Below are positions 9,887 through 22,466 of a stretch of DNA of 33,660 nt, piece after piece (position 1 is the stretch's first letter; each line of letters opens with the position of its first letter). The position numbers were made by a program, and so were the translations under genes. The stretch spans positions 1 to 33,660 of the forward strand of contig JAMPGQ010000019.1 in assembly GCA_023663825.1 (NCBI GenBank). Reading direction: 5' to 3'. This stretch comes from Anaeroplasma bactoclasticum (GTDB taxonomy: Bacteria; Bacillota_I; Bacilli_A; Acholeplasmatales; Anaeroplasmataceae). The notes below the pieces were generated by a model that was not told the DNA's origin, did no database searches, and saw only the letters and a list, made by a program, of their open reading frames with translations.

Positions 9887-9895
9887 TGGTATAAT
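9887..9895 (+). promoter_or_regulatory. Extended -10 promoter of the PHP/phosphoesterase/EI-like operon
   Basis: TGGTATAAT at 9887-9895 is an extended -10 with a perfect TATAAT. There is no clear -35. The AGGGGGTG ribosome-binding site at 9911-9918 follows. The next three genes overlap or nearly abut, so this is probably their main promoter. Confidence 0.6.
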
Positions 9896-9925
9896 GGGTT
9901 AGTAAATGAAAGGGGGTGTAACTAT

Positions 9926-10750
9926 ATGATACATGCAAACTACCATAGTCATTTGGTTTATTGTAATCATGCCAAAGGTCATGCAGAAGATTATATAAAA
10001 ATTGCATTAAAGCATAATTTTATAGAACTTGGCATTTCCGATCATGCCCCGCTTTTACCATGCTTTATGAGTAGCTTTGAATTTGAACGCTTCGGACGTA
10101 ATTATCATACTATGACCTTAGACACTGCTTTAACAAAATATTTGCCAGAGGTAGAAGAAGCAAAAAGAAAGTATGAAGGACAAATTAAGATTTTGTCTGC
10201 CTTTGAGATTGAATATTTTTCAACCAGTGAATTTTTTGCAAGATATTTAAGAAAGAAAGTGGATTATTTAAATTTGGGAGTTCACATGTTTGAGTATAAA
10301 GATCAAATCTTAAATAGTTATTATCAAGTAGACACAACTACAATTTATGCTTATATGGATGCTGCAATTAAAGGAATGAAGACAGGACTATTTAATGTGC
10401 TTGTACACCCTGATTTGTTTATGTATGCGTATAAGGATAAAAATAGGGAACGCAAGTTTGATGAGCATTGTGCGTATGTTTCAAAAAAAATTATTGAAAC
10501 TGCGATTGAATGCAATGTATATTTAGAACTCAATGCTAACGGAATAAATAATTCGAGATTTTCTCCTGAATGGCTATATCCATGTAGAGAGTTTTGGGAA
10601 ATCGCAAAGGAGTATCCAGATTTAAAAATTATTATAGGAGCGGATGCTCATGACCCAGAGGCACTAGTTTGTGATTATATTCGTCAGGCAGAAGAGTTTG
10701 CAAAGGAGTTGGGCTTGAAGGTTGAAGATACAATGGAGGTAAATCATTGA
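9926..10750 (+). CDS. PHP-domain phosphatase (histidinol-phosphatase-like)
   Basis: A 274-residue PHP-domain metal-dependent phosphoesterase. The metal-binding motifs occur in the expected order: HSH near the N-terminus, SDHAP, FEIEYF, LGVHMF, VLVHPD and GADAHDP. Overall it matches the HisK/HisJ-type histidinol-phosphatase layout. No other his genes are nearby, so a role in histidine synthesis is not supported by context, and these proteins are often generic phosphatases. AGGGGGTG at 9911-9918 sets the start. The stop overlaps the next gene by one base (TGATG), indicating translational coupling with a second phosphoesterase. Confidence 0.8.
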   Translation: MIHANYHSHLVYCNHAKGHAEDYIKIALKHNFIELGISDHAPLLPCFMSSFEFERFGRNYHTMTLDTALTKYLPEVEEAKRKYEGQIKILSAFEIEYFSTSEFFARYLRKKVDYLNLGVHMFEYKDQILNSYYQVDTTTIYAYMDAAIKGMKTGLFNVLVHPDLFMYAYKDKNRERKFDEHCAYVSKKIIETAIECNVYLELNANGINNSRFSPEWLYPCREFWEIAKEYPDLKIIIGADAHDPEALVCDYIRQAEEFAKELGLKVEDTMEVNH

Positions 10751-12075
10751 TGCAAAAAACAATTATCAAAGAAAACTATGAATATTGGTATTTTGATCAA
10801 CAAAAAGAGTATTTTGATATGGTTGATCAAATGTTAAATGATGGATATCAGATTACAGATTCCATTCATCTATGTGTAGAGTTAACAAAAGAGGATAAGA
10901 GTTATTTATTGTCTTTTATTCTTATAGAAGTAGTAGATGAAAATATTAAGGAAACACTTCGTCATCTTGATAAAGAATACAAGCTAGTATATCCAAACTA
11001 TGATCATTGTATATTAAATACGATTTCCTCTATCCGCAAGCAATTTAATGGTAAACCAAATTATGCATTAGATGAGCATATGGAAGTCATTTTCAAAGAA
11101 AAGAGATACAAGAATGTTATTGTTATGTTATTAGATGGAATGGGAGAGAATATATTAGAAAATAATTTAGAGCCAGATTCTTTTTTAAGATGTCACCATC
11201 TTTATACAAACACTGCGATATATCCCTCCACTACTGCAGCATCTACAACAGCTACAATATCAGGCTTATCTCCAATTAGAACAGGCTGGTTAGGATGGCA
11301 GAATTACTTTAAAGAAATTAAAAAAAATATTATTCTATTTAGTGGAAAGGATTATTTTACTAATGAACCAACAGGCTTTAGTGGTTATAAGGCTTTACAC
11401 TATGAACCATTTTATGCAGACCTAAAGGTAAATGGCTCTATGCATCACCCTAACTTTAAGAAGCATAAAAAGAATTTCAAAAAGGTTTTAAAGAATAGTT
11501 TAAGAGCTATCAAAAAGAAAAAACAAAATGTACAATATGTTTATTTCACCGATCCAGATGGTATGATGCATGAGCTTGGAACCTTTGATGAGAGAGTTGT
11601 TGCTAAATTAAAGGAAATGGACGATACTTTAACTTGGTATGCCCAAAAACTTCCTAAGGATACACTTTTAGTGATTAGTGCTGACCATGGACATACAAAT
11701 ATAAAAAACATTGAATTTTATAATTGTACGCCTCTTTTAAAAATGTTAAATCGTCGGCCCTCTAATGATTCTAGATGTATTACCTTTAGTGTTAAGAAAG
11801 AATATAGAACCGTTTTTCCTAAATTATTTAAAGATTTGTTTGGATATGCTTATGACATTATGCCTTCTAGTGAGGCAATACACTTAGAATTTTTCGGTAA
11901 AAAAGAAGAAATTCCCCATACAAGAGTTTATGATTTTTTAGCAGATTATGTGGCAATTGCCAAGAATGAGTATTGTTTTAACTATAAAGGAGAAGAACCC
12001 ATTGAATTTAAAAGTCATCATGCAGGTATAACTGCAGATGAAATGTTAGTACCTGTAGTTGTATATAGGAAGTGA
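10750..12075 (+). CDS. Alkaline-phosphatase-superfamily phosphodiesterase/pyrophosphatase
   Basis: A 441-residue protein with a roughly 110-residue N-terminal part I do not recognise, then a type I phosphodiesterase/nucleotide pyrophosphatase fold. Visible site motifs: VMLLDGMG with metal ligand D129; YPSTTAASTTA with the candidate nucleophile Thr161/162; FTDPDGMMHELG; SADHGH; and HHAG near the C-terminus. There is no signal peptide, so it is probably cytosolic. The ATG at 10750 shares a base with the upstream stop. A TTG at 10747 is closer to the ideal distance from GGAGG (10735-10739) and cannot be excluded. It sits between a PHP phosphatase and an Enzyme I-like protein. The substrate is unknown. 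Confidence 0.8.
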   Translation: MQKTIIKENYEYWYFDQQKEYFDMVDQMLNDGYQITDSIHLCVELTKEDKSYLLSFILIEVVDENIKETLRHLDKEYKLVYPNYDHCILNTISSIRKQFNGKPNYALDEHMEVIFKEKRYKNVIVMLLDGMGENILENNLEPDSFLRCHHLYTNTAIYPSTTAASTTATISGLSPIRTGWLGWQNYFKEIKKNIILFSGKDYFTNEPTGFSGYKALHYEPFYADLKVNGSMHHPNFKKHKKNFKKVLKNSLRAIKKKKQNVQYVYFTDPDGMMHELGTFDERVVAKLKEMDDTLTWYAQKLPKDTLLVISADHGHTNIKNIEFYNCTPLLKMLNRRPSNDSRCITFSVKKEYRTVFPKLFKDLFGYAYDIMPSSEAIHLEFFGKKEEIPHTRVYDFLADYVAIAKNEYCFNYKGEEPIEFKSHHAGITADEMLVPVVVYRK

Positions 12076-12079
12076 TGAA

Positions 12080-13576
12080 ATGAGTAGTTATTCAGGGAAG
12101 GTATTATCTGAGGGAGTGGCTATTGGAAAAGCACTCACCTTTAGTTATCGGTTTTTAAAACAAAAAACCACCCAACCTACAGAGGAAAAAGAAAAACTAA
12201 AAAAAGCACTTGAGGATTCTATAAAAGAATTAGAAAATTTAAAAAATGCTCACAAAGAAAACGAAGAGTACATTTCTATGCAAATTCTTTTACTTAGTGA
12301 CCCTACACTATTAACTAATGCAAACAAAGAAATTGATAAGAATCTTTCTGCAGAACAAAGTGTCTCTAATGTGCTACAGGAAATTATGAATTCATTGATG
12401 GATTCTACTAGCAGCTATTTGAAAGAACGTGTCATGGATTTTTCAGATATTAAGGAACGTATATTGAGAAATCTTATAGGAACACAACACTTAAGTATAC
12501 AGTCAGATTTTATATTAGTTGCAGAAGAATTATACCCTTCTTTTTTAATTCAGCATAAAAACAACATTTTAGGAATTATCACGCTTAATGGTGGATATAG
12601 CTCCCATGGGGCAATTCTTTGTCGTCAATTTAATATTCCCTATATGATTTCTGATGTGGAAGTTAAAGAAGGGGAAACCATAATCTTAGATACCAGAAAA
12701 CAACAAATTATTACTTCTCCTCAAGAAGCAGAAATCCTCTATTATCAAGAGGTCATACAAAAATTATCTGAAGAAAGCTTTGAGGCTGTTGAGCATCGCC
12801 CATATCAATTTTTAGCAAATCTATCTGATAACAGTGAATTAGGAAAAGTAAAAGAATATGGTTTTGATGGCATAGGATTATATCGAACAGAAATGATATT
12901 TATGAATAGTGATCGCCCCTATACATTAGAAGAACAATATGAGATTTATAGTGAAGCTGTTGAAACTATGCAAAATAAAAGTATTTGCTTTAGAACATTT
13001 GATATAGGAGATGATAAGCAACTATCTTATATTAAAGCTTCTAAAAAGGGTGTCGATAACTATATTCTTAACCCAAGTATATTTGAAACACAAATTAAAG
13101 CAATTATAAAATCAAATCATTATAATACAGTTAAAATTATGTTTCCTATGATTTACACATCAAGTGAATTTAAATTTTTAAAAAAATGGGTACTTCAAAT
13201 TCAAAGAAAAATGAAGGATACTTCACATATGGAATTTGGAATCATGCTAGAAACAGAAGAAGCATTGCGTTCTATCGAAACCTTTAAAGATGTGGATTTT
13301 ATTTCTATTGGTACAAATGATTTGGTGCTTTCTATCTATCATATTAGAAGAGATGTTCAAACTGCAGATATGCAAGAATATTTAAAAGATTTAATTGCCA
13401 AATTAAAACGGGTTGTAAATTTCACTAAAGAGAATAATATTACTTTATCTATTTGTGGAGAACTCGCAGCCATAGAACCAGCATTGAAAGAATTTATGTG
13501 TATAGGCATCACAAACTATTCTGTTGCAGCACCAGCAATTAAGGTATTAAATCATGTTTATAAAGAATTTTTTTAA
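12080..13576 (+). CDS. Divergent PTS Enzyme I-like protein (PEP-protein phosphotransferase family)
   Basis: A 498-residue protein starting 4 nt after the previous stop (AGGA at 12067-12070). It has the domain order of Enzyme I: an N-terminal HPr-binding and phosphohistidine region, then a PEP-binding TIM barrel. Retained: GGYSSHGAILCR with phospho-accepting H176, GIGLYRTEMIF (R269), RTFDIGDDK (R305), IMFPMI, GIMLETEEA (E391), SIGTNDL (N413, D414) and CGELAA (C459). Typical EI is about 570 residues. Here the NPFLGxRxxR segment that supplies a PEP-phosphate-binding arginine is missing: DNYILNPSIFETQ stands in its place. Other barrel motifs are also off consensus. There is no HPr or PTS permease gene nearby. 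It may be a regulatory or specialised paralogue, or a degenerate EI, so I withhold the symbol ptsI. Confidence 0.82.
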   Translation: MSSYSGKVLSEGVAIGKALTFSYRFLKQKTTQPTEEKEKLKKALEDSIKELENLKNAHKENEEYISMQILLLSDPTLLTNANKEIDKNLSAEQSVSNVLQEIMNSLMDSTSSYLKERVMDFSDIKERILRNLIGTQHLSIQSDFILVAEELYPSFLIQHKNNILGIITLNGGYSSHGAILCRQFNIPYMISDVEVKEGETIILDTRKQQIITSPQEAEILYYQEVIQKLSEESFEAVEHRPYQFLANLSDNSELGKVKEYGFDGIGLYRTEMIFMNSDRPYTLEEQYEIYSEAVETMQNKSICFRTFDIGDDKQLSYIKASKKGVDNYILNPSIFETQIKAIIKSNHYNTVKIMFPMIYTSSEFKFLKKWVLQIQRKMKDTSHMEFGIMLETEEALRSIETFKDVDFISIGTNDLVLSIYHIRRDVQTADMQEYLKDLIAKLKRVVNFTKENNITLSICGELAAIEPALKEFMCIGITNYSVAAPAIKVLNHVYKEFF

Positions 13577-13629
13577 AAATGTTTAAATTTGTAAGTTTTT
13601 GTAAATACTACCTAATGGATGTGATATTT

Positions 13630-14145
13630 ATGAGAACTATGGGCATCGTTAGAAGAATCGATGAACTTGGTAGAATTGTAATTCCTAAGGAGGTACGTAA
13701 AAGACTTCGTATGGATAGTGGAGATTTAGTAGACATTAGTGTTGAAGAGGATAATGTTGTATTATCTAAGTTTCATCCATTAAATCATGATCAAGAAATG
13801 GTTGCATCATTTTGTGATTCTTTAAAGGAAAGCTATCAGATAGATCTTATCATTACTAACCTACAAAAAGTCATTTATTCCACATTAGATGATGACATAA
13901 ATGATGAGGAATTAGATTCGGAATTTTTAAAACGAATTCATTCCTATATTGAAAAAGAAATATCAGCTTTAAATAAATTAATTTTAACTAAAAACTATAC
14001 TATAGATAAAGATTGTATCTGTTATGAAATTCATATAGAAAATGAATTGTTTGGATATTTAATTTTATTAGATAGTATGATTAGTAAAAAACAAAAGGAT
14101 ATAGCTGGTTTCGTTTTAAATTATTTTGATAAAATATTTAAATAA
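13630..14145 (+). CDS. spoVT: AbrB-family sporulation regulator SpoVT
   Basis: A 171-residue protein. The ATG at 13630 (MRTMGIVRRIDELGRIVIPKEVR) is chosen for GGATG at 13617-13621, 8 nt ahead. An earlier in-frame ATG at 13579 adds residues unlike the family. Residues 1-50 are a swapped-hairpin AbrB DNA-binding domain; the rest fits the degenerate GAF-like C-terminal domain of SpoVT, which is 178 residues in Bacillus. In the known system SpoVT is a forespore regulator that tunes sigma-G genes and germination. Its position downstream of prs-pth resembles the Bacillus order, which supports SpoVT over AbrB or Abh. With spoIIE it is the second sporulation marker in the window. Confidence 0.88.
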   Translation: MRTMGIVRRIDELGRIVIPKEVRKRLRMDSGDLVDISVEEDNVVLSKFHPLNHDQEMVASFCDSLKESYQIDLIITNLQKVIYSTLDDDINDEELDSEFLKRIHSYIEKEISALNKLILTKNYTIDKDCICYEIHIENELFGYLILLDSMISKKQKDIAGFVLNYFDKIFK

Positions 14146-15735: not shown

Positions 15736-15800
15736 AAAAAAACATATAAATTATATTTTTTAAAGAAGTAATTTTAAGACAAAAAGGAATGAGATATAAA

Positions 15801-18308
15801 ATGAGAGTTTTAAGAATAAAGATACTTACTACTATAATTATGATTTTAAATTGTGTATTAATCATCGACAAAATATTCAATATACCAATTCATGCAGAAG
15901 ATATGAATACTAATGAAGTAAATGAAATATCTTCTTCGCTAAAAGCTACAACACTGGGAATAGGTGGGGGAGGAATGCTCTTTGATCCATCCATAAGCCC
16001 GTTTGACGAAAATACTATGATAGTTCTACCAGATATGGGTGGAATGTATGTATCCCATAATGCAGGAGTAAATTGGAAAAGAAATAATGTACGAGGAATT
16101 ATACAAAAAGCATATTTTGATTCTAATAATGAAAAAGTAGTATATGCAGGTGGTTCAGGATTATATAGAAGTACGGATAATGGAGATACCTTTAATTTAA
16201 TATTTCCAAGAGAAGAGGAAATCATTGAAAGAAGAAATTGTGATGAAACAACAATGCATTATTTATTTACAAAAGGAAATTATCCGACCGATAAATTGGT
16301 AAAAGATATATTAGTGAATCCAAATGATTCTAATAACATTTTTGTATTAATGTATTATGGAAAGGATGGAGTTGTATTTGAAAGTAAAAACAATGGAGAT
16401 AGCTTTGAAGAAATATTCACATATTCAAAGAAAATTTTCTATGGTGTTTGGAGTGGTTATAATAAGTTATTATATCAAAAGGAAACAAATACATTATATT
16501 ACTCTATAGAAGATGGTGTTTTTAAATATGATAGAGAACAAGGGAAATGTACCCAAGTATATAATAGTGAATTAGGAATAGTAAATATGGCTTATTTTCA
16601 GGAAAATGGAAAGACTTATTTCACGATTATAGAAAAAACAACTCAACTCGAAAAATTTGATACAAAAGTTTTTTATACAACAGATTTTTCTCCAAAAACC
16701 ACAATAGATATAAGTAGAAAAATAGTAACCAGATTGCAAGATACCTTTGATGCAAGTGGATATACAGGTGTTACATACAACTGGAAATTTGAATATATAG
16801 TAGCAGATTCATTAAATAACATTTATGTCACTCAAAATTCTTTTTCAAATAATTCGGCTTATCCATATACCATAGCAGGAATTATACGTTTTAATGGAGA
16901 AGGTAGTACTTGGTTATACGGCAATCCATATAAAAATCATGCAACAAGTGCGTTAGCTGAAAAAGGTTGGAATGATGGGAACGTAGCAGCTTATGGAATT
17001 GCATTAAGTAAAAAAAATAAAGGAGCTATATTATATACAACCTTATGTGGAGTTTACTATTCCCCAGACAGTGAGCATTTTTATCAAAGATATTGTCATG
17101 TGATAAAAGAAGGAAATAGTACAAGCTATGTTACAAATGGAATTGATGAGCAAACCACATATGGAGTAAGAATAAATCCATTTAACAAAGAAAATATACT
17201 ATTATTAAACACAGATTTAGGACTAATAAGAAGTGAAGATAATGGAGTATCATGGACAAGAGCAATATCAGGAATTAAATCCACATGGGTTAATACTGTT
17301 TATGATGCTGCATTTGATAAACGAAAAGAAAATGTTGTGTATTCTCTTTGGTCCGGAAGACATGATATGCCATATGAGCCGGGTAATGAGACAGATGGTG
17401 CAAACAAAAGAGGCGGATTTGCAATATCCAATGATGCAGGAAAAACATGGAATTGTGAATATTCTAAAGGGTTACCAGAAACTGCAATACCTGTGAAAAT
17501 GAGTATAGTTTATCCACAAAAAAATGAAGACGAATTAACTATATATGTTGCAACTATGAATCATGGATTTTTTGTAAGCTATGATGGTGGAAAAACATTT
17601 ACAGAAATAAATGATGGAATAGAAAGAGTCAGTTATAAAGAAGGAACACAATACCAATATATTTTAGCAGAAGATATAGAAGCCAAAGATGGTAGGGTGT
17701 TTGGATGTACAGCAAAAAGTAATTATAACGGTCAAGTACAATCAGGAGAAGTATTTGAACTAAAAAATAACAGATGGGAAAAAATCGAATTACCTAGTGA
17801 TGTACAAATCCCAAGAGATATATATTATAATAATGGAACATTATACATATCAGCAACAGTAGTAAGAACATGGGATTCTAAGGATGGAGTAGCCTATGGA
17901 AGTGTAGGTGGAGGACTTTATGTATACAAAGATGGCGAAATAAATCAAATTTTCGATAAAAATATTTCTGTTACAGGAGTCCAAATGGATTCTAAAGGTG
18001 TAATGTATGTGAGTGATACTAATGGGAATATCTACCGCAAAACAGAAACTAGTGGTTATGTAAAAATTTATGATGGCTATCATAGCATTAGTAAAGGTGT
18101 ACAATTAGAAAATGATAATGAACTTTATTTGCCAACTTTAGGTGGTGGATTGTTAAAATTAGAAGGACTAGAAAGCCTTAGTGAAAGCAAAGCAGGATTG
18201 AGCCAAATACAATTCAGTATAATTTATGGTATAGTTGGAGTGGCAGTATTCTTATTGTTGGGAATAAGTATTGTTTTTATTATTCGAGTTAAAAAGAAAT
18301 CAAAATAA
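15801..18308 (+). CDS. Membrane-anchored Asp-box beta-propeller protein (GH74/sortilin-like)
   Basis: An 835-residue exported protein. I prefer ATG 15801 because AAGGA (15784-15788) abuts the ATG at 15789 with no spacing. It opens with a signal or anchor segment (MRVLRIKILTTIIMILN ...), ends its ectodomain near LSQIQFS, and finishes with one membrane segment and the basic tail RVKKKSK. The ectodomain opens GIGGGGMLFDP with LPDMGGM (D78), close to the N-terminus of GH74 xyloglucanase-like propellers. At least six Asp-box turns are visible: SHNAGVNW, STDNGDTF, SKNNGDSF, SEDNGVSW, SNDAGKTW and SYDGGKTF. GH74 enzymes cleave beta-glucans such as xyloglucan. Whether this one is catalytic or only a binding or sensing propeller cannot be told; the second catalytic Asp was not located. 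It is a single-gene unit with its own promoter. Confidence 0.75.
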   Translation: MRVLRIKILTTIIMILNCVLIIDKIFNIPIHAEDMNTNEVNEISSSLKATTLGIGGGGMLFDPSISPFDENTMIVLPDMGGMYVSHNAGVNWKRNNVRGIIQKAYFDSNNEKVVYAGGSGLYRSTDNGDTFNLIFPREEEIIERRNCDETTMHYLFTKGNYPTDKLVKDILVNPNDSNNIFVLMYYGKDGVVFESKNNGDSFEEIFTYSKKIFYGVWSGYNKLLYQKETNTLYYSIEDGVFKYDREQGKCTQVYNSELGIVNMAYFQENGKTYFTIIEKTTQLEKFDTKVFYTTDFSPKTTIDISRKIVTRLQDTFDASGYTGVTYNWKFEYIVADSLNNIYVTQNSFSNNSAYPYTIAGIIRFNGEGSTWLYGNPYKNHATSALAEKGWNDGNVAAYGIALSKKNKGAILYTTLCGVYYSPDSEHFYQRYCHVIKEGNSTSYVTNGIDEQTTYGVRINPFNKENILLLNTDLGLIRSEDNGVSWTRAISGIKSTWVNTVYDAAFDKRKENVVYSLWSGRHDMPYEPGNETDGANKRGGFAISNDAGKTWNCEYSKGLPETAIPVKMSIVYPQKNEDELTIYVATMNHGFFVSYDGGKTFTEINDGIERVSYKEGTQYQYILAEDIEAKDGRVFGCTAKSNYNGQVQSGEVFELKNNRWEKIELPSDVQIPRDIYYNNGTLYISATVVRTWDSKDGVAYGSVGGGLYVYKDGEINQIFDKNISVTGVQMDSKGVMYVSDTNGNIYRKTETSGYVKIYDGYHSISKGVQLENDNELYLPTLGGGLLKLEGLESLSESKAGLSQIQFSIIYGIVGVAVFLLLGISIVFIIRVKKKSK

Positions 18309-18904: not shown

Positions 18905-19020
18905 GCTTATCGAATAAGCGCACTAGCTGTGAAGTGGGAGGTTGCCGACACACTGAAGAGCGTTGTCATTGCAATGTATCGGGTTTTCCCATGGAGCAAG
19001 TCTATACAAAGATTATAGGC
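18905..19020 (+). promoter_or_regulatory. Structured leader RNA of the S10 operon
   Basis: A leader of about 130 nt precedes rpsJ. It opens with stem GCTTAT (18905-18910)/ATAAGC (18914-18919). A larger domain is closed by TGGGA (18935-18939)/TCCCA (18987-18991) with inner CCGA (18945-18948)/TCGG (18979-18982), and encloses the palindrome CATTGCAATG (18967-18976). The phrases GGAGGTTG, GACACAC and ATGGAGCAAGT resemble, from memory, leaders found before rpsJ in other Firmicutes, so it is probably an autoregulatory ribosomal-protein site. Which protein binds (L4 is a candidate) is not shown. No uridine-tract attenuator is visible. Confidence 0.65.
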
Positions 19021-19037
19021 GAAAGGAGTTTAAAAAA

Positions 19038-19343
19038 ATGGCAAAATCAAAAATTAGAATTCGTTTAAAATCTTATGATCACAGATTGTTAGATTTATCA
19101 GCAAAGAAGATTGTTGATAGCGTAAAGAAGACTGGTTCAAAGGTTAATGGTCCTGTACCTCTTCCGACAGAAAAGGAAATCTTTACAATCTTACGTTCAC
19201 CTCACGTTAACAAGGATTCTCGTGAACAATTTGAACGTAGAACTCACAAGAGATTAATCGAAATTGTGGATCCAACTCCACAAACAATTGATGCTTTAAT
19301 GCATATTGATTTACCTTCTGGTATTGATATCGTATTAAAGTAA
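19038..19343 (+). CDS. rpsJ: 30S ribosomal protein uS10 (NusE)
   Basis: A 101-residue protein starting [19 protein letters not shown], the standard uS10 opening. AAAGGAG at 19022-19028 fixes the ATG at 19038. An upstream in-frame ATG at 18963 lies within the leader RNA and is rejected. uS10 sits in the 30S head and also pairs with NusB in transcription antitermination. The motifs PLPTEK and [16 protein letters not shown] are intact. It is the first gene of the 30-gene run. Confidence 0.98.
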
Positions 19344-19379
19344 TAAAAAATAATAAGAAAGAAAAGAGGAAAAATTTCA

Positions 19380-20021
19380 ATGGCTAAGGGAATCTTAGGT
19401 AGAAAATTGGGCATGACTCAAATTTTCGATGCAGCTGGAAATTTAATTCCAGTGACTATCATTGATGCAACTGCAAATGTTGTTCTTCAACAAAAGACAG
19501 TAGAAAATGATGGATATGTAGCTGTTCAAGTTGGTTTCTTAGATAAGAGAGAGAAGCTATCAAACAAACCTGAACAGGGCCACGTTGCAAAGGCTAACAC
19601 TGCTCCTAAGCGCTTCATAAGAGAATTCCGTTTCTCAGAAGCACAAGGAAATGAGTTACTATCTTACAATGTAGGCCAAGAAATTAAGTGTGATATATTT
19701 GCTGCAGGTGATGTAGTAGACGTAACTGGTACTTCAAAGGGTAAAGGCTTTGCTGGTACGATTAAGCGTTATAATCATGCTCGTTTAAGAATGAGCCATG
19801 GTACATCTGCATGTCATCGTATCGTTGGTTCAATGGGTCCAATCAAAGGTAATATGAAGGGTAAGAAAATGCCTGGTCATATGGGACATGAAACCGTAAC
19901 ATTACAAAATTTAGTAATTGCTGCTGTAGATACAGAAAGAGACTTAATCTTAGTTCGTGGTAATGTACCAGGACCTAAGAAAGGTTTAGTAATGATCAAG
20001 ACAGCTGTAAAAGCGAATTAG
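19380..20021 (+). CDS. rplC: 50S ribosomal protein uL3
   Basis: A 213-residue protein opening [16 protein letters not shown], the conserved uL3 start. Its long extension with [21 protein letters not shown] and the [20 protein letters not shown] loop reaches toward the peptidyl transferase centre, where mutations give linezolid and tiamulin resistance. GAGGA at 19366-19370 lies 9 nt before the ATG. uL3 is an early assembly protein of the large subunit. Gap to rplD is 14 nt. Confidence 0.98.
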
Positions 20022-20035
20022 AAAGGAGATTTACT

Positions 20036-20665
20036 ATGCCAACTATAGCATTATTAAATCAATCTGGAGAAAAGATTAAAAATTTAAAGTTAAGTGATGA
20101 AATCTTCGGAATTGAGCCTAATCGTCAGGTTGTCTATGATGTAGTAAACTGCCAAAGAGCAGCTATGCGTCAAGGAACTCATGACACTAAGGGCCGTAGC
20201 GAAGTTCGTGGTGGCGGACGTAAGCCTTGGAGACAAAAGGGAACTGGACGTGCTCGTCAAGGATCTATCCGTGCTCCTCAATGGCGTGGCGGTGGTACAG
20301 TATTTGGACCAACACCAAGAAGCTATGCATTCAAGTTGAATAAGAAGGTTAAACAATTAGGTTTAAAATCAGTTTTATCTTATAAGGTAAAAGAAACTAA
20401 ATTTGTTGCAGTAGATGCAATCAAATTTGAAGAAGCAAAAACTAAGAATTTCTTAAAGTTCTTAAGTGATATTAAGGTAGAGGGCAAAGCAATCGTAGTT
20501 TGCACTCGTGATGAATTAACAGAACAAGCTATTTTATCTGCTAGAAATGTTCCAGGTGTATTCCTTACACCAGTAGATAACGCAAGCGTTTATGAAATCT
20601 TATGCTATGATAAGATGGTCGTAACTGCTGGTGCGGTAGCTTACTATGAGGAGGAATTGAAGTAA
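20036..20665 (+). CDS. rplD: 50S ribosomal protein uL4
   Basis: A 209-residue protein. The basic loop [19 protein letters not shown], which lines the peptide exit tunnel, and the [10 protein letters not shown] stretch are intact. In E. coli uL4 represses the S10 operon by binding its leader, and Bacillus is thought to do the same. That makes uL4 the first candidate ligand of the leader at 18905-19020. AAAGGAG at 20022-20028 precedes the start. rplW begins one base after its stop. Confidence 0.97.
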
Positions 20666-20666
20666 T

Positions 20667-20954
20667 ATGACTAAAGTATTTGATATTATTCAAGGTCCAA
20701 TCATTACTGAAAAGACAATGCAATTAAAGGAAAAATTCAATAAGTATACTTTCAAGGTTGCTAAAAGCGCAAATAAAATTGAAATTAAAAATGCTGTTGA
20801 AGAAATATTCAAAGTAAAGGTTGAAAGCGTAAATACAATCAATGTATTACCTAAGCGTAAGAAGGTTGGTAAGTATGAAGGATTTGCTCCTGCATACAAG
20901 AAAGCCATCTGCAAATTAGCTAAGGATGACAAGATTGACGCCTTCGAAATCTAA
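20667..20954 (+). CDS. rplW: 50S ribosomal protein uL23
   Basis: A 95-residue protein ([18 protein letters not shown]) with the uL23 signature ITEK and [18 protein letters not shown]. It sits at the tunnel exit, where it is the docking site for trigger factor and contacts SRP. The ribosome-binding site GAGGAG lies inside the end of rplD, implying coupled translation. Length is normal. Confidence 0.97.
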
Positions 20955-20973
20955 TTAGGAGGAAATTATTAAC

Positions 20974-21807
20974 ATGGCAGTTAGAAAATATAAGCCAACA
21001 TCAAATGGTAGACGCAATATGTCTGTATTAACATTTGATGAAATTACAACAGATACTCCTGAAAAGTCACTATTGGCACCTAAGCATAAGAAGGGTGGAC
21101 GTAATAATTCAGGAAAGATTACAGTTCGTCATCATGGTGGCGGAAATAAACAAAAATATCGTATTATTGATTTTAAGAGAAATAAGGATGGAATTCCAGC
21201 AAAGGTTAAATCCATTGAATATGACCCAAATAGAAGTGCAAATATCGCATTATTAGTTTATGCAGATGGTGAAAAAAGATATATCTTAGCCCCTAAAGGC
21301 TTGCAGGTTGGTGATACTTTACAATCTGGAAGTGGTGTAGATATTAAGCCAGGTAACGCATTAGTTATCAATGAAATTCCAGTAGGTAGCTTAATTCATA
21401 ATGTTGAATTACATCCTGGTAAGGGTGGACAGCTAGCTCGTAGTGCTGGTGTTTCTGCACAAATTTTAGGTCGTGTAGAAAATTATGTATTAGTTCGTCT
21501 TGGAAGTGGTGAGGTTCGTAAAATCTTAGCTACTTGTAAGGCTACAATCGGTGAGGTTGGAAATGAATCTCATGAATTAGTTAGAATCGGTAAAGCAGGT
21601 AAGGCTCGTCATATGGGAATGCGTCCTAAGGTACGTGGTTCAGTTATGAATCCTAACGATCACCCACATGGTGGTGGTGAAGGTAAGTGTCCAATTGGCC
21701 GACCTTCTCCAGTTACTCCATGGGGTAAGCCAGCACTTGGTTTAAAGACTCGTAATACGAAAAAGGCTTCTACAAAACTTATCGTACGTAGAAGAAACGA
21801 CAAATAA
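20974..21807 (+). CDS. rplB: 50S ribosomal protein uL2
   Basis: A 277-residue protein opening [18 protein letters not shown]. Conserved [17 protein letters not shown] and the C-terminal [24 protein letters not shown], which holds the histidine important for peptidyl transfer. It binds 23S rRNA and bridge B7b. TTAGGAGGAAA precedes the start. The C-terminal basic tail [10 protein letters not shown] is normal. Confidence 0.98.
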
Positions 21808-21825
21808 TAAGGAGGAAATATTATT

Positions 21826-22104
21826 ATGGCTCGTTCAATTAAGAAAGGACCTTTTTGCGACGATCATCTAATGAAGAAGATTGAAGCACAAAAGGATAAC
21901 CATGAGAAAAAAGTAATTCAAACTTGGTCTCGTAGATCAACAATATTCCCTGCATTTATCGGTTTTACCATTGCAGTTTATAACGGACGTGAGCATGTTC
22001 CTGTTTATGTTACAGAAGATATGGTAGGTCACAAATTAGGTGAATTCGCTCCTACAAGAACTTACCGCGGACATGGCGCTGATGATAAGAAAGCAAAGAA
22101 ATAG
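21826..22104 (+). CDS. rpsS: 30S ribosomal protein uS19
   Basis: A 92-residue protein ([20 protein letters not shown]) of the 30S head, where it partners uS13 and touches the A-site finger of 23S r[42 protein letters not shown] is unmistakable in the translation (22-100 region). AAGGAGGAAA precedes the start. Confidence 0.97.
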
Positions 22105-22124
22105 TCTAAAGGAGAAAGATGAAA

Positions 22125-22466
22125 ATGGAAGCAAAAGCAGTTGCTAGTACAATTCGTATCACTCCACGTAAGGCTCGTCTAGTTGTAGATTTAATCCGTA
22201 ATAAGGATGTAGCTGAAGCAAAGGCTATCTTAAAGCTAACGAATAAGCAAGCTTGTGAAGTGGTATTAAAAGTTTTAAATTCTGCATGTGCTAATGCAGA
22301 ACACAATTACAATATGGATTCTAGTAATCTATATGTTAAAACAGCATACGTTAATGACGGTATCCGTATGAAAAGAATGTTACCTCGTGCTAAAGGTAGA
22401 GGCGATGTTATCATTAAAAGAACTTGTCATATTACAGTTATCGTAGCTGAAAAAGAAAGCAAGTAA
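22125..22466 (+). CDS. rplV: 50S ribosomal protein uL22
   Basis: A 113-residue protein ([20 protein letters not shown]) with the [15 protein letters not shown] signature. Its hairpin ([10 protein letters not shown]) lines the exit tunnel, a site of macrolide resistance changes. Two ATGs are possible. AAAGGAG at 22108-22114 is 10 nt from 22125 and 4 nt from 22119; I prefer 22125 because the product then has the usual N-terminus. The only difference is two residues. Confidence 0.95.

Follow-up and report, generated by a model that had tools for sequence, protein, structure and literature searches.

A shortened enzyme I without the NPFLGxRxxR loop and its possible place in a transport-free PEP relay

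The 33,660-nucleotide stretch of DNA analysed here (the window) encodes a shortened enzyme I (EI) that has lost the NPFLGxRxxR segment and keeps the phosphorylated histidine and catalytic residues of the enzyme. On sequence grounds, the account that we favour, with slightly better than an even chance of being right, is that of a vertically inherited, shortened EI heading a transport-free relay, PEP -> EI -> HPr, which would probably be slow and would report the glycolytic state. The short EI would thus probably read out the state of sugar breakdown rather than drive import. The window is contig C10 of genome G000 (2.06 Mb, 96% complete), which belongs to family f1 and genus g1. Two other families of the order, f3 and f5, were used for comparison, f5 being a second family with short EIs. 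Genome G073 (f3, genus g14) we take to be Acholeplasma laidlawii, hence "A. laidlawii-type" for g14, and G068 is presumably A. brassicae. The gene and the codons of its main residues are as follows.

12080..13576, + strand: short enzyme I homologue, 498 aa (translation, Pfam, family model)
12605..12607, + strand: codon of H176 (E. coli H189, the phosphorylated His of EI), invariant in 52/52 short EIs
12884..12886, + strand: codon of R269 (E. coli R296), 52/52
12992..12994, + strand: codon of R305 (E. coli R332), 52/52
13034..13051, + strand: residues 319-324 (KASKKG) of the beta3-alpha3 loop, where the 8-residue gap falls, with K323 filling the R358 column (alignment)
13250..13252, + strand: codon of E391 (E. 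coli E431), 52/52
13316..13321, + strand: codons of N413-D414 (E. coli N454-D455); Q458-Y459 come next in 39/39 canonical rows and are replaced here (alignment)
13349..13351, + strand: codon of R424 (E. coli R465), 52/52
13454..13456, + strand: codon of C459 (E. coli C502), 52/52

The ATG at 12080 is preceded by an AGGAAG-like ribosome site; the ORF list begins instead at a TTG at 12059. As judged by Pfam, all three EI domains (PF05524, PF00391 and PF02896) were present in order in the 498-aa product, and a GAF domain was absent at the N-terminus. The end-to-end match to TIGR01417 reached 312.7 bits, under the curated cut-off of 341.7, and we counted this shortfall against reading the protein as a working EI in a relay. 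An AlphaFold2 model (mean pLDDT 85.6), made with 31 short EIs, was aligned with crystallised EI 2wqd over 496 residues (Z 32.8, rmsd 3.8), which corresponds to the full-length EI fold. With Foldseek and VIA-align, nothing ranked above EI, and PPDK and PEP synthase followed. The original prediction, that the protein is about 70 residues shorter than normal EI and lacks the NPFLGxRxxR segment, was borne out: the product has 498 aa against 575 in E. coli, and 8 columns are missing inside that stretch relative to E. coli EI (L090). The structure prediction gave an EI fold over the whole length, and the alignment the loop gap. The loss of length is spread over the N-terminal domain, the NPFLGxRxxR loop and about 35 C-terminal residues.

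Our alignment held 52 short EI rows (43 from f1 and 9 from f5), with E. coli EI (L090) and the canonical EIs of the order as references. The f1 rows were 43 of the 50 full-length EIs, those of G007, G010, G014, G016, G019, G022 and G023 being left out, and a broken f5 copy (L183) stayed in the counts of 52. The canonical set comprised 45 rows with duplicates and fragments, or 39 rows after removal of four duplicates and two fragments. An identical 8-column gap in the NPFLGxRxxR stretch was found in 52/52 short EIs of the two families. A chance gap or frame artefact was rejected, since the gap is common to 52 aligned rows from different genomes. The equivalents of H189, R296, R332, E431, N454, D455, R465 and C502 were kept in all 52, and H176, R269, R305, E391, N413, D414 and C459, which had been named as retained in this protein, were invariant in a 31-row alignment of relatives. 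Arg stood at 358 and 361 in 45/45 canonical rows (duplicates and fragments included). The R358 column of the short EIs held Lys in 42/52, Arg in 6/52 and another residue in 4/52, R361 was mostly lost, and most f1 rows had Gly and Asn-Tyr after the R358-column residue (KGxxNY). Judging from the alignment, the phosphate-contacting charge may be kept by Lys in the R358 column. An arginine supplied from a shifted position had been named as an outcome that would overturn the prediction; this holds in part, through the conserved Lys or Arg of the R358 column, which is K323 in the window's protein.

According to the available part of PMC5537066, the beta3-alpha3 loop of E. coli EI helps to form the dimer interface, and through its Arg358 it touches the PEP phosphoryl group. 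The same part of that paper describes G356S, a change inside the segment missing here, as leaving about 4% of the autophosphorylation Vmax and weakening the dimer, while the C-terminal domain binds PEP with unaltered intrinsic affinity. Because the lost residues lie in this loop, with its PEP-contacting Arg and dimer contacts, and because G356S retains only about 4% of Vmax, a very slow sensor fits best among the roles first proposed for the protein, the rate being predicted. Another of those roles, phosphorylation of a non-PTS partner, does not have to be invoked, as the genome itself encodes HPr and HPr kinase.

Further conserved positions were changed outside the gap. Q458-Y459 were lost in most short EIs and kept in 39/39 canonical rows. 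The F73, A75 and H76 columns, which canonical EIs conserve in the helical domain at the N-terminus, were changed in most f1 members; HPr docking may therefore be altered or gone, and we counted this against the relay. A preferential loss of the dimer loops was considered and rejected: beyond the deletion itself there was no clear excess of changed columns, the conserved canonical columns kept by most f1 rows being 7/16 in beta3-alpha3, 5/11 in beta6-alpha6, 32/53 in the rest of the C-terminal domain and 24/34 in the N-terminal domain. Model confidence was also set aside as evidence on the beta3-alpha3 loop, which was about equally uncertain in a canonical control (72-84 vs 75-88). The beta6-alpha6 loop, which carries Q458-Y459, was the only loop modelled worse (mean pLDDT 51-67 vs 80-91 in the canonical control).

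To place the short EI, 55 f1 genomes were searched with the window's protein (P0001). Matches were obtained in 53, including 31/31 good genomes, and a full-length short EI in 50/55; G042 and G006 held contig-edge pieces, G018 gave a dikinase-like match alone, and G011 and G040 (63-64% complete) gave no P0001 match. The short EI was the only EI found in G000, where the next match was an 886-aa dikinase-like frame. A second, canonical ptsI together with HPr had been considered for this genome; no second EI was found, and HPr is present elsewhere in it. Across 160 genomes of the order, a family-model search found full-length-type EIs in f3 and short EIs in f1 and f5. Among the matches listed from 395 sampled genomes of the class, those of about 500 aa and above 450 bits came from f1 and f5 only, a search that weak short forms would escape.

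A phylogeny of the short form had been proposed earlier as a check. In a maximum-likelihood tree of 87 EIs (quick method, gap columns removed, root placed on E. coli EI, and 10 rows omitted as duplicates, fragments, near-copies or fused, the last being L089), the short EIs of f1 and f5 formed a single group with SH-aLRT 100, within which f1 received 99 and f5 98. This clade was nested among the canonical EIs of the order, nearest to L191 and the A. laidlawii type (support 89 and 97); on this quick tree, rooted on E. coli EI, the short EI descends from within EI. The stem of the clade measured 1.07 changes per column; the protein is fast-evolving. The gene order ROK kinase, short EI, S10 ribosomal operon was found in 9/9 f5 loci and likewise in f1 genome G054, and in the window and three other f1 loci (L074, L075 and L077) other genes separate the short EI from an S10 operon on the same contig stretch. 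This position agrees with the tree and the shared gap, and a single deletion in a common ancestor, then passed on vertically, is the simplest account.

Selection was gauged by dN/dS, which was 0.079-0.156 over 15 pairs from six species of genus g1, a rough ratio because dS was near saturation. L183 (G064, f5) has an in-frame stop in its short EI. A decaying paralogue had been suggested as one possibility, and the data do not support it: the protein is the only EI in G000, is near-universal in f1, keeps its catalytic residues in 52/52 and shows low dN/dS. Judged by its sequence, the gene is not decaying, one f5 copy (L183) excepted. At L089 (G020) the short EI is fused to about 490 extra residues, SGNH/GDSL-type esterase-like by eye, which is either a real fusion or a misread stop.

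We then turn to the transport side of the system. EIIC was searched for with PF02378 and EIIA with PF00359 and PF03610, a set that lies apart from the galactitol/ascorbate EIIC, EIIA-Glc and EIIA-Lac models; of the 14 known genomes used as controls, 5 to 7 gave matches. PTS_EIIC exceeded its cut-off in 2/55 f1 genomes (G035 and G015) and matched weakly in G012; among the 31 good genomes it was found in G035 only. PTS_EIIA_2 (PF00359) and EIIA-man (PF03610) were each found in 0/55. Presence as the sole EI alongside working permeases had been named as a contrary outcome; the short EI is the only one found in G000, but these three models detected neither a PTS permease nor an EIIA there. G035 carries, beside its short EI, a canonical 542-aa EI (NPALGYRAVR) with an adjoining HPr and EIIC in the same cluster, an arrangement suggesting that the short EI is unable to serve transport or is not used for it. 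In f5, EIIC was found in two genomes, G154 and G156, and each additionally has a canonical EI (in pieces in G156) on the same contig. G015 (78% complete) is the exception, having an EIIC piece of 64.6 bits at a contig start and a short EI only, with no canonical EI found, and we counted it against a transport-free relay. Eight g14 genomes of f3 gave no EIIC match (PF02378), yet their EIs lie over the family cut-off, and the four of these EIs that were read (L154, L184, L185 and L188) keep the full loop. Hence a lack of permeases allows the deletion without compelling it, and does not explain it alone.

The HPr census covered 71/72 matches (G029:C44 was left out) from 41 genomes, 25 of them of f1. 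The order has two main types, HPr-A with a GIHARPA-type motif and HPr-B with a GLHASLA-type motif, the latter beside pgk and tpiA. The single detectable HPr of G000 is an HPr-B between pgk and tpiA (both enzymes named by eye), with Ser-Leu instead of Arg17-Pro18 and with His15 and Ser46 kept. His15 and Ser46 were present in 35/35 HPr-B proteins, Arg17 was replaced in 35/35 (by Ser, Thr, Ala or Gln) and Leu18 was found in 35/35; the HPr-B of the L070 locus (9892-10140) has relatives across the order. HPr-B is identical in five species (G000, G042, G044, G047 and G051), the EIs of which are down to 62% identical. His15 was present in 29/32 HPr-A proteins. Within genus g1, HPr-A has His15 in G043, G049 and G050, lacks it in G047 and G042 (Cys; L123, L125) and in G048 (Tyr; L129), where Ser46 is kept, and was not detected by the HPr searches in G000, G044, G045, G046 and G051. 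These His15 changes resemble a Crh-like loss of the PEP-dependent site. G003, G009, G020 and G023 (g2) gave one weak, HPr-A-like match each. A His15-bearing HPr was found in every f1 genome whose HPr set was read, including the incomplete G040.

According to the accessible portion of PMC8509676, few HPr residues make as many contacts with EI as Arg17. Its loss from HPr-B was therefore counted against the relay; the helical domain of EI is changed too, and the two together may be a matched change on both sides or a contact that was lost. HPr kinase/phosphorylase was found in 52/55 f1 genomes; the G000 protein scored 346.7 bits with TIGR00679 against an equivalog cut-off of 240 and has a Walker A-like GKSGIGKSE. 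CcpA-like matches occurred in 54/55 f1 genomes, G000 among them, with 0/55 over the curated cut-off, which we counted against the relay. As far as the consulted part of PMC5138195 goes, the CcpA homologue of A. laidlawii has a carbohydrate regulon of three operons, and CcpA and HPr kinase are reported for Acholeplasmatales.

The neighbours of the short EI in the window are as follows.

9926..10750, + strand: PHP-domain (HisJ-like) phosphoesterase, with a 4-base overlap with the next gene (PF02811); near the short EI in 13/22 longer-flank f1 loci
10747..12075, + strand: type I phosphodiesterase/nucleotide pyrophosphatase-like protein, stopping 4 bases before the EI ATG (PF01663; no NCBIfam match)
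13579..14145, + strand: SpoVT/AbrB-type regulator (PF04014; TIGR02851 below cut-off)
18963..22466, + strand: S10 ribosomal protein operon, its first part (rpsJ, rplC, rplD ... rplB); used as a positional marker and adjoining the short EI in 9/9 f5 loci (gene order)

The two phosphoesterases and spoVT first noted beside the short EI are thus the PHP protein, the type I phosphodiesterase and the SpoVT/AbrB-type regulator. The accompanying claim of no HPr or permease holds for the immediate surroundings, but HPr lies elsewhere in G000. The order PHP-phosphodiesterase-EI-SpoVT was seen in genus g1; the PHP and phosphodiesterase neighbours were not found in genus g4 loci or f5, where a membrane protein or ROK kinase lies upstream. 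A ROK-family kinase stands directly upstream of the short EI in 9/9 f5 loci; these kinases were recognised by their similarity to the one at L175, which itself satisfies the ROK glucokinase model. This upstream kinase of glucokinase type and the pgk-HPr-tpiA arrangement fit a glycolytic gauge. Elsewhere in the window, a pectate lyase with CBM77 and Listeria-Bacteroides repeats is encoded at 567-2945, and an 839-aa Sortilin/BNR-repeat protein at 15789-18308, after the EI cluster and before the S10 operon.

For catalysis, rate, direction and output, we infer the following course. H176 would take phosphate from PEP slowly, the trimmed PEP-binding/dimer loop limiting the rate, and His15 of HPr-B would accept it from the short EI. 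With no EIIs, the phosphate would pass back to pyruvate or be lost, so that the level of His-phosphorylated HPr would track PEP:pyruvate. HPr kinase/phosphorylase would act on Ser46, and the CcpA-like repressor would read the result. In Firmicutes, what HPr kinase does at Ser46 reflects the energy state and the glycolytic intermediates. A bolder version, which we put forward tentatively and hold to be rather doubtful, is that EI and HPr were reshaped together as a glycolysis gauge: slow reversible PEP/pyruvate exchange would replace dimer-driven speed, the HPr without Arg17 sits in the pgk-tpiA operon with no EIIA or permease, and the His-phosphate itself would be the signal, gating phosphorylation of Ser46 by HPr kinase. 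If this is true, the PTS would here be reduced to a pure two-protein PEP sensor.

Other readings have to be weighed against the slow relay. It is unlikely, though the idea deserves some weight, that the short EI is a dead scaffold or ligand sensor that binds PEP or pyruvate and HPr and acts by binding, with no self-phosphorylation. The missing R358- and G356-bearing loop, the loss of Q458-Y459 in most short EIs and the low pLDDT in the loop that carried them all agree with such a protein; however, a scaffold does not need eight catalytic residues invariant in 52/52, and Lys or Arg occupies the R358 column in 48/52. We consider it improbable that a partner other than HPr is phosphorylated, such as a protein connected with the neighbouring PHP and phosphodiesterase proteins. 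The frequent PHP neighbour (13/22), the conserved order in g1 and the changed columns of the N-terminal domain point that way, but neither neighbour was found in g4 loci or f5, and a His15-bearing HPr was found in each f1 genome whose HPr set was read.

Decay of a former transport PTS, leaving the short EI as its remnant, is very improbable. Near-universal retention in f1, dN/dS of 0.08-0.16 with an invariant active site, and HPr-B unchanged between species argue against it, although the missing permease, the long clade stem, the broken L183 and the second HPr paralogue of g1, without His15 in three genomes and not found in five, are what decay would leave. The slimmest chance is given to a conventional EI role in PTS sugar import, through a permease that was missed or is of another type. 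The EIIC piece of G015, with a short EI only, would suit it, and so would the 96% completeness of G000 and a search outside of which lie the galactitol/ascorbate EIIC and glucose/lactose EIIA models. On the other hand, EIIC exceeded its cut-off in 2/55, EIIA_2 and EIIA-man in 0/55 with positive controls, and the only EIIC among the 31 good genomes, in G035, comes with its own canonical EI.

Transport-free PTS chains are already known, and the present system is known in kind: EI and HPr are present and permeases (PF02378) absent in G000, as in a transport-free regulatory PTS, but a regulatory EIIA output (PF00359, PF03610) was not found. The EI-R group, in the part of Comas et al. 2008 (PMC2405797) available to us, likewise combines EI, HPr and often HPr kinase without PTS transporters; its systems are described there from Proteobacteria and allied phyla, whereas here the lineage belongs to the Bacilli and the EI itself is shortened. 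The regulatory PTS of Brucella has EIIA proteins (PMC2937029, in part), in contrast to 0/55 genomes with EIIA_2 or EIIA-man here, and B. sphaericus has ptsHI without hexose use, as stated in an excerpt of PMC3724859. PTS-Ntr (EINtr-NPr-EIIANtr) is also regulatory and has no membrane permease, but the short EI has no GAF domain, no EIIA was found, and HPr kinase is present. Canonical PtsI (TIGR01417; PDB 2wqd, 2hwg) shares the three-domain order, the whole-length fold, the phospho-His and the PEP/Mg residues; the short EI differs in lacking NPFLGxRxxR, about 35 C-terminal residues and Q458-Y459, in its score below the cut-off and in having no permease found to serve. By these features it belongs to an EI-derived subfamily, not filed as canonical EI, that probably works like a slow EI. 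The A. laidlawii-type EI (f3 g14), among its nearest canonical relatives in the tree, likewise occurs without an EIIC match but keeps NPFLGxRxxR and the C-terminal helices that the short EI lacks. Crh of Bacillus is an HPr paralogue with Ser46 and an altered active-site neighbourhood, like HPr-B. Crh lacks His15, whereas HPr-B keeps it and changes Arg17-Pro18.

Our search of openly licensed papers returned no description of a short EI, of an EI clade without the NPFLGxRxxR loop, of an Anaeroplasmataceae PTS, or of an HPr without Arg17 in a pgk-tpiA operon. A whole gut-bacterial family keeps EI, HPr and HPr kinase while the searched transporters and EIIA are absent, with rare exceptions, and a regulatory role would here be split from transport. 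Moreover, the natural deletion removes a loop that couples PEP binding to dimerisation, and offers a direct test of whether this loop sets the speed of EI.

Some minor observations concern the HPr loci. A third HPr type, with a GLHAKKC/GLHSKKC motif, was found in G030 and G041 (L127, L128). Directly upstream of HPr-A, in 31/32 loci, lies a small one-helix membrane protein (by eye), and these proteins align as one family (L032-L052, L054, L056, L060, L098, L106, L110 and L123-L126). One member gave weak glucose EIIB matches (PF00367 5.5e-5, TIGR02002 2.4e-9) and has no phospho-cysteine of the usual EIIB kind, which sits in a DNCATRLR motif. This upstream protein is a possible membrane dock for HPr-A.
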